14,603 bases of DNA, taken from assembly GCA_016928995.1 (NCBI GenBank), contig JAFGJS010000129.1, positions 1 through 14,603 on the forward strand, given 5' to 3'. Origin of the DNA: Candidatus Sumerlaeota bacterium. Lineage in GTDB: Bacteria > Sumerlaeota > Sumerlaeia > JAFGJS01. The translations under genes were made by a program, and so were the position numbers. The notes under the pieces were generated by a model, which was not told the origin of the DNA, did no database searches, and was given only the letters and a program-made list of their open reading frames with translations. Of this stretch, positions 1,455 to 12,450 are shown one piece after another (position 1 is the first letter of the stretch; each line of letters starts with the position of its first letter).

Positions 1455-3782
1455 CTACAACTGCTTGATCTGCGCCTGCGCGTCGCGATGCGGCTTGCTG
1501 TCTTCCGGCGTGTTCTCAATGATCGACTCATACAAATGGATCTTCTGCAGCCGCTCATCATCCGACATCTGATAAATCTGGAAAATCAACTGCGACGCCA
1601 GCTGCTCGCAGCTCGAGCGTGAATCCTTGAAATTCGGCTCCACCTTCCAAGCCTCGAAATATTTCTTCAAAGCCTCGAATTCCTTCCCCTCTGCGCGCAG
1701 CTTGCGCCCTTCGGCCAGCAGTTCATTGGCCTTCTTGCGCAGCTCGTTAATGATCGAATCCTTCTGCTTGCGCGCCTCGATGTTGTACCAAATCGAAGTG
1801 TTCGGCTCGAGCATCAGCACCGCCTCGAAATCCTCGGATTTCGTGCTCTGCATCGCCTTTTCATACGCCTCGGAAACATCCTTGGCCTGATTCACCAGCG
1901 CCTCCAGCTCGCGATAGCGGCTGTAATCCTCGGGGATCGTCTTGAAAATATCGAACAAGCGATCCGCCTGGCCGGCCTGATACATGCGATACATGCTGGC
2001 GTGTTTCAGCAAGCTCTCCTTCATCGATTCAAAACGCTTCACTTCCTCCAGCGCTTCATCGGTAAGACCAGCAGTGTTATACTCCGTTATCTTGTCGATC
2101 TCCTCGTAGGCCTTCTCGATCTGGCGTTTTTTCAGCAGATCCTCCACGGCCTCGATCTGCGGCATGTAGTGCAGATGAATCGCCACTTTGGAAATATAAA
2201 GTTTCGTGTCCTTATAGCCGGGATAGATTTCCTCGGCTTTCTCAAAATATGTCTTCGCCGAAGCGTAATCCTCGCGCTTAAAGCTGCGCACGCCTTCATT
2301 ATATTGCTTGCCGGCGTTGTCCTCCAGCGCCTCTTTATATTTGCGCTTATCACGCTGCACGATGTCCAGCTGCTGCGAACGGCCCGCAGGCAGATCTTGC
2401 AGCGCGAGCCAGGCGTTGTAATAGTCCGTTTTCTGAAACGCGCGCTGACCCTGATCCAGTTTCGTGATCGTCTCCAGCGCGTTCTGCACTTCCTCCGGAA
2501 TCGTGTAACTCTCGCCCTTCTGCTTCGCCACTACGGAGTTCTTCCGGTATACTTCAATCTGCTCTTCGGCTTGCTTGAACATCTCGCGCTCAACCAGCGT
2601 CCAGATTTCATCCGGAGTGATGGTCTGAGCCATCTCGGTCGGAATCTCCTCGACGGTTCCGGTCGCCGCGCCGCCGCCCGTCGTTGTCGCCGCGCCCGTT
2701 CCGCTGCCGCTGGCCTGCCCGCCGCCGCCCGGAGCTTTCTTGTCATCACCGCCAGAAACCAACAATCCGACAAGGACGATAAACACAAACAGCAACACGC
2801 CGCCGACGATCATCACCTTGCGCCCGATCAACGGCTTCTTCTCTGAAAAAACCGGCATTTCCCTCAGCCGGAAGTAATAAGCCATTTCGCCGAACTCAAG
2901 CGAGTCCCCATCCTTGATGTATTGCGTCTTATAGGCTTTGCCGTTCACCTTCAGCGTCGCGTTGTTGTTCAGCAGCTTGACCTGAATCCTGCCGCCCTGC
3001 ATAAAAGTGATCTGAGCGTGCTGCTCCGCCACTGTGTCGTTCTTCACCACAACGGCGCATTGATCCGGATTGCTGCCGATGACGCTCTCAATGGAAGTCA
3101 ACGGAAGCACCTGCTTCCTCGCCTGGAGCGTCTTCTCCTCCAGCTCGGCGAAAATCTTGCCATGAATCACGCCCAGGATCGTCGGCGACGGACCCAGCAT
3201 CGTCGGCATCGACTGGATGTTGCCCATCACCGTCTTCTCGCCGGAGCCGACGGCCTTCGAGCCCTTCGCAGGAGCCGCAGGCGCCTCTTGCTGCGCTCCG
3301 CCTCCCATCATATTCTTAAAAGCGTCGTCGCTGAATCCGCCGAAAGCGTCCTCGCCGCCCACCGCGCTGAAGTCCGCCGTGGTCTTGTCCGGAGCCGGAC
3401 CTGCTCCGGAGCCGAATGCGATCGTCGCCTCGCCGCCGGGCTGCTGGCCGCCGCCGAAAAGCATCGTCGGCTCGTCGTATACCTCTTTGGCCTGCACGAC
3501 CTTGAAAACATACTCCGGACGGCCGAAGCGAATCACATCGCCGGCCTTCAGCTGGACCGAACCGCTGATTTTTTCGCCCCCGACAAATGTCCCGTTAGTC
3601 GAGCCGGTGTCTTCAAGGGTCCACTCATCCCCCTGACGACGGATCACCGCATGGCGGCTGGAAATCTCGGCAAAGCCAAAGTGAAGATCATTCGACGGCG
3701 AACGCCCAATGCTCACCTCGTCTTTTTTCAGATCGAACCGGTCCCCTTTTTCAACGCTTTCAAGATACGCTTCCGAAGCCAT
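1455..3782 (-). CDS. Membrane protein: FHA, degenerate FHA, TM segment, TPR-like domain
   Basis: A 775-residue protein. Residues 22-97 form a canonical FHA domain (Gly26-Arg27, SSRH at 41-44, STNG at 61-64), expected to bind phosphothreonine peptides. A Gly/Ala/Pro-rich linker (about 100-215) holds five similar Thr motifs (Thr106, 120, 184, 194, 201, each followed by M/I/V). Residues 228-306 look like a second FHA fold with lost binding residues (Ser237 for Arg, NNNA for STNG). Residues 322-343 are one hydrophobic helix after a basic stretch, so FHA is predicted inside and the C-terminus outside. After a Gly/Thr linker, about 385-775 is helical with TPR-like repeats (around 493-530 and 683-720). 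The ATG at 3782 has GAGGA 7 nt upstream. It is the last gene of the Tad-like cluster and probably a scaffold or sensor for it; the exact role is inferred. Confidence 0.9.
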   Translation of the reverse strand: MASEAYLESVEKGDRFDLKKDEVSIGRSPSNDLHFGFAEISSRHAVIRRQGDEWTLEDTGSTNGTFVGGEKISGSVQLKAGDVIRFGRPEYVFKVVQAKEVYDEPTMLFGGGQQPGGEATIAFGSGAGPAPDKTTADFSAVGGEDAFGGFSDDAFKNMMGGGAQQEAPAAPAKGSKAVGSGEKTVMGNIQSMPTMLGPSPTILGVIHGKIFAELEEKTLQARKQVLPLTSIESVIGSNPDQCAVVVKNDTVAEQHAQITFMQGGRIQVKLLNNNATLKVNGKAYKTQYIKDGDSLEFGEMAYYFRLREMPVFSEKKPLIGRKVMIVGGVLLFVFIVLVGLLVSGGDDKKAPGGGGQASGSGTGAATTTGGGAATGTVEEIPTEMAQTITPDEIWTLVEREMFKQAEEQIEVYRKNSVVAKQKGESYTIPEEVQNALETITKLDQGQRAFQKTDYYNAWLALQDLPAGRSQQLDIVQRDKRKYKEALEDNAGKQYNEGVRSFKREDYASAKTYFEKAEEIYPGYKDTKLYISKVAIHLHYMPQIEAVEDLLKKRQIEKAYEEIDKITEYNTAGLTDEALEEVKRFESMKESLLKHASMYRMYQAGQADRLFDIFKTIPEDYSRYRELEALVNQAKDVSEAYEKAMQSTKSEDFEAVLMLEPNTSIWYNIEARKQKDSIINELRKKANELLAEGRKLRAEGKEFEALKKYFEAWKVEPNFKDSRSSCEQLASQLIFQIYQMSDDERLQKIHLYESIIENTPEDSKPHRDAQAQIKQL

Positions 3783-3838
3783 AATTATTCCTCAAATCAT
3801 TAAGATCCATTGCGTCAAACTGCCCGACTCATGCTTCT

Positions 3839-3867
3839 TTTATCGCGCTCGCGCCGCGCGATGTCAA
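3839..3867 (-). promoter_or_regulatory. Strong promoter of the FHA/TPR gene with a spacer dyad
   Basis: On the minus strand a perfect TTGACA (3862-3867) is followed after 17 nt by GATAAA (3839-3844, 4/6). The spacer is almost wholly occupied by a 21-bp dyad, ATCGCGC-n7-GCGCGAT (3842-3862), with perfect 7-bp arms overlapping the edges of both hexamers. This could be an operator for a dimeric regulator, or could form a hairpin in read-through RNA. The 3' end of the preceding FHA gene is at 3899, so the gene can be expressed separately from the rest of the cluster. Confidence 0.5.
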
Positions 3868-3898
3868 GCGCTCACAAGCCCCCTCGGCGCGCCCAACC

Positions 3899-5371
3899 CT
3901 AGCGCAGGCTCTCCTGATCGCCGATGTATTGCTGCTTCTTGAAATATTCATACTTGTAATGCGCCCATTGATTCCAGTCCTCATCCTCGTCAGACACGAT
4001 GTCCATCAAACTCTCGCAGCTCTCCAGCGCCGGCTTATACGAATTCCGGTCGTCCATGATTTGGATGTCCCGCCGGTACGTCTCGAAATGCTCCTGCAAA
4101 ATCCGCTGCACTTCGATCAGCTGCTTCATCGCCTGATCCGCCTCGTAAGGCGCCTCCTCCAGACGTTTGTACAGCAGCACTGCCTGGCGGAACAGGCGAT
4201 AGCCCTTGTACAGGTTGCGCTTGTCCTCCGGCCGCCGCGCATGCACCAGGCCCAACTGATACGACCGCTTGGCCTTCGAAGTGATTTCCGCGGTGGTCAT
4301 GTCCTCGATCGCATGCTCCGGACGCTTCGCCCGGAAAGTGTCCAGCAGCCGGTCCACCGACTCCTTCTCCTGAAGCCGCTGATATGTCTTCTCGCTGCAT
4401 AGAATCGTGATCGTATAGCGGTTTCCGAAAGCGCAATAACCCCGCTCGCGAGTGACGATTTTATCGCCGGTGCTGCCGATGAACGATCCCTGTATTTCCT
4501 CGCCAATCCCGCCGCTGGCCCAATCCATGCCAGTAATTTCTTTCAGCGTGGAAATCTTCTGTATGATCTGATTGAAATACTTTGGAAAGTCTTCCTTCAA
4601 CACGGAGTAGCTCTTGATGTCGCTCTCCTGGCTCACGCCCTCCAGCACTTCCACCAGCAGCGTCACACGATATTCCCGCCGGCCGAAATAATCCTTGAAC
4701 CAAAAGTGCGTATGGCGGCCGTTAAACAGCTCATTGCCGAAAATCATCCCATTGGCGATTTCCGGCGGATGGGTTTCCCAATCCCGCCGCGTCACATGCA
4801 GGTCCATCGCGTCTTGCCAGCCCTCGTCGGCCGGAAGCTGCAGTTCAAAGCCATACTCCGACGAGAAAAACGGCTGCTCCTGAAGTTTCCAGTCGATCGG
4901 CGACTCATGAATCTTGTTCGTATACTTCTGCCAGATCGCCATGCCGAACAGCGCGCCCATCATGATCACCCCGAGCATCATCAGCATCCGCATCCGTTGC
5001 TTGGGATTCATTTTCTTTTTCGGACCGCGCCGCTTGCCCGGCAGCAGATCATCGTCCGCGCGTTCCTTGATCGGCTTGCTGTCCTCGGCGACGTCGAAAT
5101 CCACGTCGCCGAAGCGCAGCCGGTCGCCATGGACCAGATCGCCTTCCTTCACCCGCTTGTTGTTGTGGAACACGCCATTCGTCGAGCCGAGATCGCGGAA
5201 GTAAAACACATGATCCTTCATGTAGACCTCGGCGTGCTTGCGAGAAATGCTCAAGTGATCCAGTTGAATCTCACATTCATCGCCCCGCCCCACCGACGCT
5301 TTGTCCGTAATGACGTACTCCGTGCCCTTTTCGATGCCCTCATAGGCCACTAATCGAATTTTGTGAGCCAT
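3899..5371 (-). CDS. Membrane protein: FHA, TM segment, PsbP/Mog1-like and helical C-terminus
   Basis: A 490-residue protein. Residues 5-95 are a canonical FHA domain (Gly28-Arg29, SISRKH at 41-46, STNG at 63-66). A Lys/Arg-rich stretch (113-128) precedes one hydrophobic helix (about 129-147), so FHA should be cytoplasmic and the rest outside. Residues 168-348 start with EYGFELQLP and end with SVDRLLDTFRA, a pattern I associate with PsbP/Mog1/DUF1795-type alpha/beta domains; this is recognition by eye. Residues 360-490 are helical and TPR-like. The ATG at 5371 has GGCGGGA just upstream; an in-frame TTG at 5383 has its AGGA directly against it and is disfavoured. It lies between the DUF192 gene and the longer FHA protein and shares their layout, so the two are likely diverged partners acting with the Tad-like machine. 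Confidence 0.88.
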   Translation of the reverse strand: MAHKIRLVAYEGIEKGTEYVITDKASVGRGDECEIQLDHLSISRKHAEVYMKDHVFYFRDLGSTNGVFHNNKRVKEGDLVHGDRLRFGDVDFDVAEDSKPIKERADDDLLPGKRRGPKKKMNPKQRMRMLMMLGVIMMGALFGMAIWQKYTNKIHESPIDWKLQEQPFFSSEYGFELQLPADEGWQDAMDLHVTRRDWETHPPEIANGMIFGNELFNGRHTHFWFKDYFGRREYRVTLLVEVLEGVSQESDIKSYSVLKEDFPKYFNQIIQKISTLKEITGMDWASGGIGEEIQGSFIGSTGDKIVTRERGYCAFGNRYTITILCSEKTYQRLQEKESVDRLLDTFRAKRPEHAIEDMTTAEITSKAKRSYQLGLVHARRPEDKRNLYKGYRLFRQAVLLYKRLEEAPYEADQAMKQLIEVQRILQEHFETYRRDIQIMDDRNSYKPALESCESLMDIVSDEDEDWNQWAHYKYEYFKKQQYIGDQESLR

Positions 5372-5466
5372 GGTTCCCGCCAATCCTCATGATGTAATAA
5401 ACCGCTTTGCGCTATTGCGACACGTTCAGTTCTCTTTTTCTCAAGCGGATGGAACGCCGCGCTCCC

Positions 5467-5814
5467 TCACTCCTCAATCGCCAGGCGATCTCCCGTCTGC
5501 GTGCCCGTCGCCCGGATGACGCCAGCAGGCAGTTCCAGCACGCTTTGCGCGCCCACCGGCCCCCAGCTGAAGTTCCAAGGCCGCAACGCCGGCTCCATCC
5601 GCACCACGCGTTGCTCGCGGTCGAGATACAGCACGTCGATCGCAAACTGCATGAACAGCGTATGTATCGAGCCGCAAGGGACGATCCACATCCCCTCGCC
5701 TCGCGACAGCCTGCGCCGCCCCAACAATCCGCGCGTCCGGGCGCCCTTCGTCCGGGCGACATCCACCGAATCGCCCAGCAGCGTCCCCTGCGTCGTGTTC
5801 CGCACTCTCGCCAT
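5467..5814 (-). CDS. DUF192 family protein
   Basis: A 115-residue protein matching the DUF192 (PF02643) pattern along its whole length: ARTRGLLGR (25-33), RGEGMWIVPC (38-47), SIHTLFMQFAIDVLYLD (49-65), then LRPW (77-80) and VLELPAGVI (92-100) before a TGTQTGDR end. The biochemical function of the family is unknown. There is no signal peptide, although many DUF192 proteins elsewhere are exported, so this one is probably cytoplasmic. The start is taken as the ATG at 5814; an in-frame TTG at 5826 has no better ribosome site, and the only SD-like GGCGG is rather far upstream. It begins 37 bp after tadC and ends 95 bp before the FHA/PsbP-like gene, so it is probably in the same transcript as the Tad genes. 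Confidence 0.85.
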   Translation of the reverse strand: MARVRNTTQGTLLGDSVDVARTKGARTRGLLGRRRLSRGEGMWIVPCGSIHTLFMQFAIDVLYLDREQRVVRMEPALRPWNFSWGPVGAQSVLELPAGVIRATGTQTGDRLAIEE

Positions 5815-5851
5815 TAAAATAATCAACCGCCGTTTTCCGCCCGCGCCCGCT

Positions 5852-6772
5852 TTACATCTTGGCGAAATGCTTGATGAAAATCGGACCCAGGATCACGATG
5901 AAAATCGACGGGAAAATGAAAATCAGCAGCGGGAAAAGCATCTTCACCGGAGCCTCGTTGGCCAGCGTCTCCGCGATCTGCGAACGCTTCGTCCGCAGCA
6001 TATCCGACTGCAAGCGCAACACCGGACCCAGACTCGCCCCCAGCAGCGTCGCCTGGATCAGAGCCGTCACCACGGAAGTCATATCCGGCATATTCACCCG
6101 CTCCTTCATCTGCTGCAAAACCTCCACGCGCGTCTTGCCCAGCTGCATCTGCTGCAACATCCGGCTGATCTCCTCGCGCAACGGAGACTGCGGCGTCTGA
6201 CGGCTCACGCGCTGCAAGCCGCCCAGAAAGTCCAAGCCAGCCTCCACCGAAACCGTCAGCAAATCCAGCGTATAAGGCAACGCCCGGAAAATCTTCTTCT
6301 GACGCATCCGCACATTGCGGCTCAGCCAGCTATCCGGATAGACCATCCCGATCAGCCCGCAAAACAGCGGCATCCCGATCAGCATCATCAGGCCCTTGCC
6401 CATGTCGCCGCTTTTCACCAGAAAAATAAAACCGATAAAGCCGCCCAGCGCCGCTCCCGCAATTCCGGCCAATGGGATCATCGCCATGTATTCCTCCGTC
6501 TTCACCTGATCCTCGAGGCCGCCCATGACCAATTTGCGGGCCGCATCCTGGCGGTACTTTTCAATCGCGCCGGAGCGGAAGCTGCTGGTGATCGGCATCA
6601 ACATCGCCAGAAAAGGCGTAATCAGCCAGAAAATGCCGGTTTTATGCGCCTCCACCTGGGACAGATCTTCGCCCAGGTCGAGCATCGTTCGCGGAAAGAA
6701 AACATAAATCGCGCACATCATCGCGAGGGCGCCCATAATCCCCGCGGCATAAATCATTGTGTCGCCTTCCAT
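5852..6772 (-). CDS. tadC: TadC-like inner-membrane platform protein (type II secretion F domain)
   Basis: A 306-residue integral membrane protein, the usual length for TadC. Hydrophobic segments lie at about 8-26, 46-64, 95-117, 127-146 and 276-299. Between the last two groups a cytoplasmic helical region (about 160-275) has the T2SSF-domain signature, including LPYTLDLLTVSVEAGLDF (165-182) and LGASLGPVLR (244-253). With TadB it would form the inner-membrane platform on which the CpaF/TadA ATPase acts to assemble a Tad/Flp pilus or secrete substrate. The ATG at 6772 has a strong AAAGGAG 8 nt upstream. It is separated from tadB by an unusual 417-bp spacer, although these two genes are normally adjacent and tightly spaced. 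Confidence 0.9.
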   Translation of the reverse strand: MEGDTMIYAAGIMGALAMMCAIYVFFPRTMLDLGEDLSQVEAHKTGIFWLITPFLAMLMPITSSFRSGAIEKYRQDAARKLVMGGLEDQVKTEEYMAMIPLAGIAGAALGGFIGFIFLVKSGDMGKGLMMLIGMPLFCGLIGMVYPDSWLSRNVRMRQKKIFRALPYTLDLLTVSVEAGLDFLGGLQRVSRQTPQSPLREEISRMLQQMQLGKTRVEVLQQMKERVNMPDMTSVVTALIQATLLGASLGPVLRLQSDMLRTKRSQIAETLANEAPVKMLFPLLIFIFPSIFIVILGPIFIKHFAKM

Positions 6773-6792
6773 GCTGTGACGCTCCTTTATTC

Positions 6793-7190
6793 GGGTTTGG
6801 GGTCTAGGGTCTGGGGTATGGAGCGGCTGACGCCGTAAAAGATCTCTCCATCGCAGCTATCATGCCCCTTTTATCATTCACCCCAACTTCACTTAAGTTT
6901 CATTAGTCAAGAATCAAATGACTGTTTTTCTCGGGTTGATCAGGATCATGGTAAATCCTATTTCCAACTTCATTGATCCACCATCGATCACAAATTTCTC
7001 CCTCATTTGTGATCAAAGAAAGCCAGCGATCAGCGCAATCCGGATTTCCATATATACCATCTCTCCAAGTCGGGTCGACTATCGGGCTTCAATTCCCGGC
7101 CACAGTCTGGGCAATCCATCATCAATCACCCTTTTCCAGAATCTGGATCGGATCGCTCTGTCAGACAACCAGACCCTAGACCCCAAACCC
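6793..7190. mobile_element. MITE-like element with 22-bp inverted repeats between tadB and tadC
   Basis: The 417 bp between tadC and tadB hold no convincing gene. The interval is bounded by perfect 22-bp inverted repeats at 6793-6814 and 7169-7190, each built from telomere-like heptamers TTTGGGG, TCTAGGG and TCTGG reading inwards. Inside, a second inverted repeat (GATCACAAAT at 6986-6995 with ATTTGTGATC at 7005-7014) forms a 10-bp stem with a 9-nt loop. The interior looks more AT-rich than the neighbouring genes. The right arm starts at the last base of the tadB stop codon, and the left arm ends close to the tadC ribosome site. I see no clear target-site duplication and no transposase, so a non-autonomous element is an inference; a processed RNA or regulatory leader is the alternative. 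Confidence 0.55.
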
Positions 7191-8074
7191 TAAATATCAA
7201 TCGTACAGATCTTCACGATAATCTTGTAGCCGATCCACTGCCAAAAAAACATGAAACCGGTCGCAATGCAGCCGGGCCAGGTCTGCCACATCACCTCGAT
7301 CAATCCGCTGTCGATCACATAAATCGCCGCCGCGATGAAAAACGGCAATGCGCAGACGATGATCGCCTGCAGCCGGCCCGTGGATGTCAGCGAATTGATC
7401 TTCCCCTGAATTTTAAAGCGATCGCGCACCGTCAGCGACAGCGACTCGAACACCTCGGCCAGATTGCCGCCCGATTTGCGCACGATGATGATCGCCGTAA
7501 CCATGATCTGGATGTCCTCCAGCGGCACGCGCTCCGCCAATTCCTGCAGCGCCTCGTCCATCTCCTTGCCCAGGCGCACGTCCTGCGTCACCTGGCGGAA
7601 CTGCACCGCGATCGGATCCTCCATCTCACGCGTCAGCACGTCCAGCGCCTGATTGAAGCTCATGCCCGAACGCAAGGCGTTGGCCAGAATCGAAAGGCCG
7701 TCGATCAGCTGCTCATTGATCCGGTCCAGCCACTTGTTGTACTTCTTCTTGTAATACCGGTCCGGAACATAGTAGCAATAAAAGCCGATGATGATCGCCG
7801 CCACTACGCGCGCCAAGAGCGGGCTTTGACCCAGCGTCATCATCCCAAAAATAAAACCGGCGCCCACGCACACGCTGATCAGCTTGTACGACGCCAGCTG
7901 CGCTGGATTCACCTGCAGCCACATCGACTTGAACTGATGCGCCCGCTCATCAGTGAAGCCTTCCTTGCTCTTCTCCATCTGCTGCTTGGCGGTGCTTTGT
8001 ACGAACCATAAAATGGTGACAACGGCAACGAACACGCATATCACAATAGCAATCATGAATTGTGTCTCGGTCAT
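7190..8074 (-). CDS. tadB: TadB-like inner-membrane platform protein (type II secretion F domain)
   Basis: A 294-residue membrane protein with hydrophobic helices at about 7-26, 64-80, 88-104, 236-255 and 266-288. The cytoplasmic T2SSF domain (about 119-240) contains the conserved pattern seen in RINEQLIDGLSILANALRSG (118-137) and the VRKSGGNLAEVFE (198-210) typical of TadB. It should pair with TadC as the platform for the FHA-CpaF ATPase. Among starts, the ATG at 8074 has GGAG at 8 nt; an ATG at 8080 is only 3 nt from it, and the longer frame from 8155 adds residues unlike the family. The stop codon TAG shares its last base with the inverted repeat of the adjacent element, so the C-terminus could have been set by an insertion. 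Confidence 0.9.
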   Translation of the reverse strand: MTETQFMIAIVICVFVAVVTILWFVQSTAKQQMEKSKEGFTDERAHQFKSMWLQVNPAQLASYKLISVCVGAGFIFGMMTLGQSPLLARVVAAIIIGFYCYYVPDRYYKKKYNKWLDRINEQLIDGLSILANALRSGMSFNQALDVLTREMEDPIAVQFRQVTQDVRLGKEMDEALQELAERVPLEDIQIMVTAIIIVRKSGGNLAEVFESLSLTVRDRFKIQGKINSLTSTGRLQAIIVCALPFFIAAAIYVIDSGLIEVMWQTWPGCIATGFMFFWQWIGYKIIVKICTIDI

Positions 8075-8204
8075 TCTCATGTCTCCATTAAGCGGTAAAC
8101 CACGACGGCACAAGCAACTGCCCGCCGTGCTGCCCTGATGCCGCATTGATTGCAAGATCGCCCTGCGCGACGATGCACAGCGGTCTTGTCTTTGCTTATT
8201 TCAG

Positions 8205-8227
8205 ATAAATGAACTTAGCTCATTTAT
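8205..8227. repeat. AT-rich inverted repeat in the cpaF-tadB spacer
   Basis: ATAAATGA (8205-8212) and TCATTTAT (8220-8227) form a perfect 8-bp stem with a 7-nt loop in the 234-bp spacer between the cpaF-like stop and the tadB start. It is too AT-rich and lacks a T tract for a convincing terminator. It could be a processing site or a protein-binding dyad. The rest of this spacer holds nothing I recognise. Confidence 0.3.
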
Positions 8228-8308
8228 GCAAGCATTATTTCCGTTTGCGCATCGTCCAGACGCGTTCCCGCGCGCCGCTCGGATGCGACAACCCAATCAC
8301 ATGGCGGA

Positions 8309-10096
8309 TCAATACGCCGCGCCCTGGAACATATCCATCGGCACTTCCTCGCCCTTCTGCCGCATCTCCTCGATGAATTTCGGAATGATGCCCGTCGGCA
8401 TGTAATAACCGCTGATCCTTCCGTTCTCATCAAAACCCGTCTGCTGATACTCGAAGATCGACTGCATCGTGATGATCTCGCCCTCTGTGCCCGTCACTTC
8501 CGACACCTCGATCACGCGCCGCGATCCGTCCGGCAAGCGCGTCTGCTGGATGATCAGGTTGATCGCCGAAGCCATCTGCTCCCGGATCGCCTTCACCGGC
8601 AGCTCCATCCCTGACATCAGCACCATCGTCTCCAGACGCGAAAGCATGTCGCGCGGGCTGTTCGCGTGGCCCGTCGTCAGCGAGCCGTCATGGCCCGTGT
8701 TCATCGCCTGCAGCATGTCCAAAGCCTCGCCGCCGCGGCACTCGCCGACCACAATGCGGTCCGGCCGCATGCGCAAGCAGTTCTTCACCAGATCGCGGAT
8801 CGTCACCGCGCCCTTCCCCTCGATGTTCGGCGGACGCGTCTCCAGGCTCACCACGTGCGGCTGACGCAGCTGCAGTTCCGCCGCGTCCTCCACCGTCACG
8901 ATCCGCTCGTCTTCGCCGATGAAACTCGAAAGCACGTTCAGCAGCGTCGTCTTGCCCGAACCCGTGCCGCCCGAAATCACGATGTTCTGATGATGCTCCA
9001 CAGCCAGCTGGAAAAAACTCGCCATCTGATCCGTGAATGAGCCGAACTTGACCAAATCCGCCACCGTCAGCGGCTTCTCGCTGAATTTACGAATCGTGAT
9101 CGAAGAGCCCTTCAGCGCCAGCGGCGGAATCACCGCGTTCACACGGCTGCCGTCCTTGAGTCGCGCATCCACCAGCGGCGAGGACTCATCAATACGGCGG
9201 CCCAGCGGCGCAACGATCCGGTCGATCACCGAGCGCACTTGCGCCTCGTTGATGAACCGCTTGTCCGTCAGCGTCAGTTTGCCCTTGCGCTCCACATAAA
9301 CCTGGTCCTTGTGATTCACCATCACTTCCGTCACTGACGGATCGGCCAGCAGATCCTCCAGCTGCCCCAGTCCCAGCGCTTCGTCCAGCACATCCTTATG
9401 CAGCCGCTGTTTGTCGAATTTGTCCGGAATCTCGCCGGCGATATCGAGAATGATCTGCTCGATCGCGCGGCTGGTTTTCTCGCGCAATTCCGCGTCCTGC
9501 AGGTCAAGAATATTCACCTGATGCAGATCCATCCGGTCCAAAAGGATGTCATGAATCGTCCGGCGAATGTTCACATACTCATCGCTGAATAAATCCTCCG
9601 CTGTCGAAGCCTTGCCGCCCGACTTCATCTGCTTCAAATCCAGATTCGTGATCTCCTTCGGACGCGGCGGCATGCCGGACGGAGCCGTCGATTTCGCCGC
9701 CGGCCCCTTCTTCCCGCCCGCCGCCATGGTCTGGGCCACATTCGGCAACGGCGGCTCATCCTCCACCATCGTCGAGCCTGCGTCCTCGCCATCGCCCTCG
9801 CCCTGCATCTGAAACAACATCATGAACTCGCCCATCATCAGCTTGTCGTTGGGCTTGAGCGCCTGCTCCCGCACGCGCTTGCCGTTCACGATCACCCCGT
9901 TCGTCGAGCCCAGATCCTGCACTTTATACACGCCGTCCGTCACGGAAATCTGCGCATGCAAACGCGACACGCTGCCCCGCGGCAAAACAACGTTCGCATC
10001 ATCGCTCCGGCCGAACGAAAGAACCATCCCCTCGTCCAAGTCCACGATTTTCTCAAATTGACGATCCTGCGTTAAAATGAATAATTTTGCGCCCAT
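8309..10096 (-). CDS. cpaF: FHA-CpaF/TadA fusion: secretion ATPase with N-terminal FHA domain
   Basis: A 595-residue cytoplasmic ATPase, longer than ordinary CpaF/TadA because of an N-terminal FHA domain. The FHA domain (about 5-96) has Gly29-Arg30, SRLH (44-47) and STNG (64-67). A linker (100-165) carries Thr109 and Thr123 in T-M contexts. The ATPase follows: helical region 175-240, ADPSVTEVMVN (251-261), Walker A GGTGSGKTT (376-384), acidic TVEDAAEL (401-408), Walker B RIVVGECRGGEA (447-458) and the His box TGHDGSLTTGHANS (467-480), all intact. It would power pilus assembly or secretion through the TadB/TadC platform encoded next. The ATG at 10096 has AGGTG 7 nt upstream. The fusion implies that phosphothreonine binding gates or recruits the ATPase; this is inferred. 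Confidence 0.95.
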   Translation of the reverse strand: MGAKLFILTQDRQFEKIVDLDEGMVLSFGRSDDANVVLPRGSVSRLHAQISVTDGVYKVQDLGSTNGVIVNGKRVREQALKPNDKLMMGEFMMLFQMQGEGDGEDAGSTMVEDEPPLPNVAQTMAAGGKKGPAAKSTAPSGMPPRPKEITNLDLKQMKSGGKASTAEDLFSDEYVNIRRTIHDILLDRMDLHQVNILDLQDAELREKTSRAIEQIILDIAGEIPDKFDKQRLHKDVLDEALGLGQLEDLLADPSVTEVMVNHKDQVYVERKGKLTLTDKRFINEAQVRSVIDRIVAPLGRRIDESSPLVDARLKDGSRVNAVIPPLALKGSSITIRKFSEKPLTVADLVKFGSFTDQMASFFQLAVEHHQNIVISGGTGSGKTTLLNVLSSFIGEDERIVTVEDAAELQLRQPHVVSLETRPPNIEGKGAVTIRDLVKNCLRMRPDRIVVGECRGGEALDMLQAMNTGHDGSLTTGHANSPRDMLSRLETMVLMSGMELPVKAIREQMASAINLIIQQTRLPDGSRRVIEVSEVTGTEGEIITMQSIFEYQQTGFDENGRISGYYMPTGIIPKFIEEMRQKGEEVPMDMFQGAAY

Positions 10097-12403: not shown

Positions 12404-12450
12404 CACTCTTGCTCATGCTCTTGCTCATGCTCTTGCTCTTGCTCTTCTTC
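12404..12450. repeat. Hexamer/dodecamer simple tandem repeat
   Basis: Two perfect copies of CTTGCTCATGCT (12408-12431) are followed by two copies of CTTGCT (12432-12443) and a CTTCTTC end. It lies upstream of cstA in the corA-cstA spacer. It behaves like a slippage-prone microsatellite and is not part of any gene I can support. Confidence 0.75.

Follow-up and report, generated by a model that had tools for sequence, protein, structure and literature searches.

The 14,603-nt contig JAFGJS010000129.1 of Candidatus Sumerlaeota bacterium (the window, meaning the whole stretch analysed; C15 of a 4.55-Mb, 92%-complete genome) carries six consecutive genes of a Tad (Flp) type machine on its minus strand, running from 10096 to 1455. 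In order, they encode a TadA-type secretion ATPase with an FHA domain (FHA-CpaF), the platform proteins TadB and TadC, a DUF192 protein, a membrane protein with one FHA domain ahead of its transmembrane (TM) segment (FHA-TM), and a 775-aa membrane protein with two FHA domains and a TPR-like stretch (FHA-FHA-TM-TPR). One TM segment is predicted in each of the two FHA membrane proteins. Pfam supports every assignment, with E-values well outside chance, in the order that a first-pass annotation had given from the letters alone. That observation was right and understated.

Four FHA domains on a split Tad machine

Four FHA domains are encoded in the window, not the three that had been counted at first. 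The three N-terminal domains are intact, as had been claimed, and keep all six positions checked, including Arg, Ser, His and Asn; the motif of FHA-CpaF reads G-R-S-H-N-G. The fourth, which is the second FHA domain of the 775-aa protein, is degenerate and lacks the phosphothreonine-binding Arg and Ser. Its Arg is absent in 11/11 comparable clusters, so at least one FHA domain per system is probably structural. The modelled FHA domain of the window FHA-TM protein is nearest to OdhI/GarA (Foldseek E ~1e-10), both of which are substrates or targets of PknB-type kinases.

A Tad (Flp) pilus is recognized by a CpaF/TadA ATPase with TadB and TadC platform genes, all present in the window, and by CpaB/RcpC, a secretin and a prepilin peptidase, which we found elsewhere in the genome. 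Contig C155 carries a Flp-like pilin candidate, the CpaA prepilin peptidase (Peptidase_A24, 3.6e-9), the sole CpaB/RcpC of the genome (2.2e-20) and the CpaC secretin, the last assigned from its position and a custom-built profile rather than Pfam. The pilin candidate carries G/QAQTEY and has no Pfam match; in Lentisphaerota/Verrucomicrobiota clusters, Flp pilins come after the FHA genes. Contig C118 carries a short, FHA-less CpaF-type ATPase (CpaF2) followed by TadE, TadG and TadE, whose matches lie close to the Pfam cut-offs. The ends of the window contig and C155 share no k-mers. The first-pass annotation had offered a "reduced or split" system. The Tad system of this genome is split across contigs; a reduced system was rejected, since the remaining parts are on C155 and C118.

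The first-pass annotation had named a gene order not conserved in relatives as its refutation; that refutation fails, as the order recurs in several phyla. Among 80 CpaF loci drawn from the genomes of 84,980 species, the order FHA-CpaF, TadB, TadC, (DUF192), FHA-TM, FHA-TM was found in Auribacterota (L067), in Planctomycetota (L075, DUF192 included) and in Lentisphaerota/Verrucomicrobiota (L082, L092, L099, L100, L107 and L110); L101 retains DUF192 and one FHA protein. Related or partial versions occur in Myxococcota (L090, L094 and L120). The FHA membrane genes are missing from every Pseudomonadota FHA-CpaF locus sampled. The position of TadB beside CpaF is conserved across loci, and the ATPase region of FHA-CpaF is 69% identical to that of L067. 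Against the TIGR03819 TadA family, the window protein scores 342.6 bits (cutoff, 373). In the window's class, such a CpaF passed the threshold in 7 of 39 genomes, two of which (G028 and G035) show the FHA cluster.

The protein in the FHA-TM slot of L110 (Lentisphaeria) is modelled as an FHA domain, a TM segment, a PsbP/MOG1-like domain and a helical tail. The PsbP/MOG1-like domain (residues ~262-425) matches 2xb3 with Z 13.4 and a root mean square deviation of 3.2 A over 146 residues; in structure comparison it also resembles Eag chaperones and DcrB. The PsbP-like outer domain first proposed for the window protein stands for this Lentisphaeria protein only; AlphaFold modelled the window domain at a predicted local distance difference test (pLDDT) score < 50, which is uninterpretable. 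In L110 and its relatives, the FHA-TM protein has a conserved juxtamembrane Thr-rich stretch, ETIAMQTRMASAEE, with an invariant Thr directly before the TM helix; this Thr is a candidate phosphosite.

TadZ, kinases, phosphatases and a second ATPase

The second ATPase and the missing TadZ were beyond the reach of the first-pass annotation and emerged from this analysis. In none of the 39 FHA-CpaF among the 80 loci was TadZ either adjacent or fused. Among the 41 other CpaF, TadZ was adjacent in 25 and fused to CpaF in 14; the two exceptions are L118, whose upstream DNA lies outside the sequence, and L104, which has neither FHA nor TadZ. The rows of the CpaF tree total 43 with FHA and without TadZ, 41 with TadZ and without FHA, and 1 with neither; both together were never seen. 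In FHA operons the secretin usually lies directly upstream of CpaF, and there is therefore no gap for TadZ. Full-length TadZ (E < 1e-140) was found in non-FHA members of the class (G001, G034 and G038). Genome-wide searches of G000, G028, G035 and the other FHA-CpaF genomes searched gave partial receiver or ParA matches only, and the 92%-complete window genome yielded no full-length TadZ. Because TadZ is missing from the other searched FHA-CpaF genomes too, its absence can probably be taken as a feature of the FHA-CpaF subgroup. N-terminal TadZ-like fusions to CpaF (L083, L087, L097, L098, L102, L105, L109, L113, L123, L128, L130, L137, L138 and L145) occur in Bdellovibrionota, Omnitrophota, WOR-3 and others.

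Can a kinase and a phosphatase be found beside such clusters? In G028, from the window's class, one strand carries, all in a row, FHA-TM, FHAx2-TM, two Hanks kinases (Pkinase, 1.3e-54 and 1.7e-48) and a lipoprotein-like gene, followed by a kinase-like TM protein and then CpaF2. A kinase (5.8e-50) directly follows the cluster of Planctomycetota L075. The L100 cluster is preceded by a kinase and followed by PP2C, a kinase-like protein and CpaF2; G047 and G052 are arranged as PP2C, CpaF2, kinase, and G053 as PP2C, CpaF2. Within ~20 kb on the same strand, a kinase was present in 6/16 clusters versus 1.5 expected (P 0.0024) and PP2C in 5/16 versus 0.17 expected (P 3.8e-7); the clusters are related, so these P values overstate independence. 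Expectations were computed from genome-wide counts, with generous placeholders entered for G048 (60 kinases and 5 phosphatases), and contig ends clip some of the ~20-kb spans, making the expectation too high, not too low. A kinase and/or PP2C accompanied 7/16 clusters versus 0/10 controls, the controls being nine FHA-CpaF loci without FHA membrane genes and one FHA-less CpaF.

The window genome holds two CpaF-type ATPases. CpaF2 was found in 8/16 clusters versus 0/10 controls, and each control genome has a single CpaF match. The CpaF2 rows form a single clade (Shimodaira-Hasegawa-like approximate likelihood ratio test, 100) in a tree from a quick search in which they have long branches. The second CpaF of the G048 cluster scores as an ordinary CpaF by profiles and is placed by the tree in the CpaF2 clade. 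By profile score, a CpaF2-like ATPase is present in Myxococcus genomes, and a TM kinase lies ~5 kb off on the same strand, as at L219 (G042, contig C40), where the ATPase is at 8965 and the TM Hanks kinase at 4172.

Feature coordinates, the tadB-tadC insert and flanking DNA

Table 1. Positions of the Tad core genes, their parts and the insert in the window
Feature	Position	Strand	Matches and remarks
FHA-CpaF, TadA-type secretion ATPase, 595 aa	8309-10096	minus	Pfam T2SSE 8.8e-64, FHA 5.6e-17
FHA-CpaF, N-terminal FHA	~9821-10021	minus	followed by disordered linker
FHA-CpaF, T2SSE ATPase	8543-9373	minus	
TadB-type inner-membrane platform protein	7190-8155	minus	T2SSF 1.4e-19; likely true start 8074 or 8080
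Non-coding insert, outside the Tad machine	6790-7193	minus	25-nt inverted arms of GGGTYTR heptamers
TadC-type inner-membrane platform protein	5852-6772	minus	T2SSF 1.1e-16
DUF192 protein	5467-5826	minus	PF02643 3.3e-22; likely ATG start 5814
FHA-TM, single-span membrane protein	3899-5383	minus	Pfam FHA 3.6e-19; likely ATG start 5371
FHA-TM, FHA	~5108-5296	minus	
FHA-TM, TM	~4931-4987	minus	followed by extracytoplasmic C-terminal part, ~340 aa
FHA-FHA-TM-TPR protein, 775 aa	1455-3782	minus	two FHA stretches, Pfam 4.7e-31, 107.5 bits
775-aa protein, intact FHA	~3522-3716	minus	
775-aa protein, Thr-motif linker	~3165-3473	minus	
775-aa protein, degenerate FHA	~2883-3086	minus	
775-aa protein, TM	~2760-2816	minus	
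775-aa protein, weak TPR	~2217-2303	minus	

The first-pass annotation had treated the DUF192 gene as a special feature of the cluster. This did not hold: it is present within 38/80 CpaF loci, many of them without any FHA, and is an accessory gene common to Tad operons. As an FHA-specific link it was rejected, being frequent in FHA-less Tad operons.

The genes are not tightly packed, and tadB and tadC are parted by a ~400-bp inverted-repeat insert with a strong predicted fold (z -7.1). A 22-mer of its arm has 27 copies in the window genome versus 1 in the control. The heptamer arms form at least 8 convergent pairs with 89-538 bp spacing and a common sub-terminal hairpin, and the inserts that they bound are a dispersed repeat family. 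In one insert (L279; G000, contig C104), an open reading frame of ~120 aa lies between the arms, and we take its product to resemble the four-helix-bundle (23S intervening-sequence) proteins.

The flanking genes are ordinary: a short-chain dehydrogenase borders the cluster at one end, and CstA, CorA and LarE lie beyond the other. A 12-bp tandem repeat, CTCTTGCTCATG, lies between the CstA and CorA genes (12406-12446). An Rfam search of the window returned no RNA family, and promoter and terminator scans of it stayed near the shuffled expectation.

A pilus under possible threonine-phosphorylation control

On balance, we lean toward the reading that the window is the motor and platform core of a complete, genomically split Tad/Flp pilus under threonine-phosphorylation control, in which FHA replaces TadZ as the hub. 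We regard the mechanism as a hypothesis well supported by gene neighbourhood and residue conservation, from which we infer the phospho-dependent binding and its partners, the replacement of the hub and the role of the second ATPase. The FHA-CpaF hexamer would power pilin polymerization through TadB and TadC. The FHA domain of this ATPase, and those that are intact in both single-span membrane proteins, would bind partners phosphorylated on threonine. The likeliest partners are each other's Thr-rich linkers or a TM kinase, and such binding would assemble or position the motor beneath the envelope complex. The outer domains of the membrane proteins (PsbP-like and TPR-like) may touch pilus or envelope parts and possibly sense them. 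A Hanks kinase would write the phosphothreonine mark and a PP2C phosphatase would erase it, while the FHA-less CpaF2 paralogue may add another motor activity, for instance retraction or the handling of minor pilins. TadZ, the ParA-like protein of other Tad systems, is described as a hub that acts early and brings in the remaining Tad parts (PMC6668835), so its possible replacement by a phospho-FHA link is a natural reading.

Several observations weigh against phosphorylation control. The Hanks kinase and PP2C alongside the machine were seen in relatives, not on the window's own contigs: neither was present in the window or in the examined part of its CpaF2 contig end, and the nearest kinase on the CpaF2 contig is ~19 kb away. 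The control by a Ser/Thr kinase that had been suggested at the outset thus stands as a serious hypothesis through the relatives' clusters, and no cluster kinase was found in the window organism. Those clusters are few in lineage, with kinases in three CpaF lineages and PP2C in one. In Lentisphaerota/Verrucomicrobiota, A, T, G or I stands in place of the Asn of the CpaF FHA domain, and this Asn is likewise missing from most FHA-TM proteins there. The linker of the 775-aa protein has 5 T-hydrophobic-hydrophobic motifs versus 0.41 expected, a post hoc count since the motif was picked after inspecting the sequence; proteins of other loci have 15 versus ~6.2 expected, many of these rows being related. 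In the window protein, the candidate phosphothreonine sites read EPTMLFG, EATIAFG, EKTVMG, MPTMLG and SPTILG. Outer domains of the FHA membrane proteins gave weak hhalign matches at most and cannot be aligned between lineages, so their homology across lineages is unproven. The exclusivity of FHA and TadZ rests on 1-3 tree events, and an independent-pairs test had too few independent pairs for significance.

In one alternative, the FHA domains serve as structural docking modules whose binding does not depend on phosphorylation, and the kinases are chance neighbours or act on other targets. The second FHA domain without its Arg fits such a role, as do the kinase-like proteins also found beside CpaF2 and the FHA domains of T7SSb EssC, which are reported to have no binding site and to engage a pseudokinase (PMC11217815). 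We nonetheless consider docking unlikely: Arg, Ser, His and Asn all survive in the window's three N-terminal FHA domains, and the clusters have more intact kinases and PP2C nearby than expected. We give the least credence to an ordinary Tad pilus of the betaproteobacterial class III (FHA) CpaF type that is followed by two unrelated FHA genes through chance alone. FHA-CpaF is common in Pseudomonadota, and class III pili (PMC12019362) share the arrangement of FHA, intrinsically disordered region and CpaF, the order CpaB-CpaC-CpaF-TadB-TadC-DUF192 and the lack of TadZ in the sampled loci. However, they are without FHA membrane proteins and without a cluster kinase or PP2C, with a single CpaF in the examined control genomes. 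The two FHA-TM genes are absent from all sampled Pseudomonadota FHA-CpaF loci, whereas several other phyla retain their slot, with order and architecture unchanged.

Instead of an adhesion pilus, the machine could also be an apparatus for contact-dependent killing like Kil of Myxococcus. In Myxococcus xanthus, Kil has FHA-KilF and further FHA proteins, for which a signalling role was guessed; kilD, which encodes an FHA protein, directly follows kilF, and the Tad genes are divided among clusters (PMC8460266). Both the FHA-fused CpaF and the division among clusters are shared with the window genome, the gene after FHA-CpaF in Myxococcus locus L071 encodes an FHAx2-TM protein in the KilD slot, and the tree places the window CpaF near Myxococcus. 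However, the branch that would join them is not well supported and the outer domains are unalignable. The window's motor cluster includes tadB/tadC and two single-span FHA proteins, and its FHAx2-TM protein is four genes away from cpaF, whereas the KilD slot is directly downstream of the ATPase. The second FHA domain of the Myxococcus protein retains the Arg that the window's fourth FHA domain has lost. Kil is described as a single-ATPase system, unlike the window genome with its two CpaF-type ATPases; CpaF2-like ATPases score in Myxococcus too. Taken together, these differences make a Kil-type killing apparatus improbable.

FHA-CpaF and the Kil system were already known, and the window module is a variant of these. 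In the threonine-phosphorylation pathway of type VI secretion systems (PpkA/PppA/Fha; covered in part by PMC11217815), a kinase, a phosphatase and an FHA protein control a secretion machine. That machine is a different one, and in the window module the motor ATPase and the membrane-spanning proteins themselves bear fused FHA domains. Type VII secretion variants also have FHA on an ATPase and a kinase and PPM phosphatase in the cluster (PMC11217815), but their ATPase is FtsK-type, their substrates are WXG100 proteins and their hosts are Gram-positive. In our partial coverage of the literature, we found no description of the kinase/PP2C/CpaF2 association or of FHA-TadZ exclusivity.

A broader division is conceivable, and we put it forward as doubtful: Tad machines would be of two exclusive kinds, one recruited by TadZ (separate or fused) and the other by phosphothreonine-FHA binding with a dedicated kinase and phosphatase, the second including a two-CpaF subgroup. 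That subgroup would have separate ATPases for assembly and retraction (or secretion) in place of one bifunctional motor. If threonine-phosphorylation control of the window's pilus is true, a widespread pilus would be switched or positioned by reversible threonine phosphorylation, and the exchange of FHA for TadZ would be a simple rule for reading Tad operons. The linked kinase, PP2C and CpaF2 genes are named, testable parts of the system. The same control would further fill in the signalling logic that is suspected but missing for Kil, whose FHA proteins collect where the cells contact prey.

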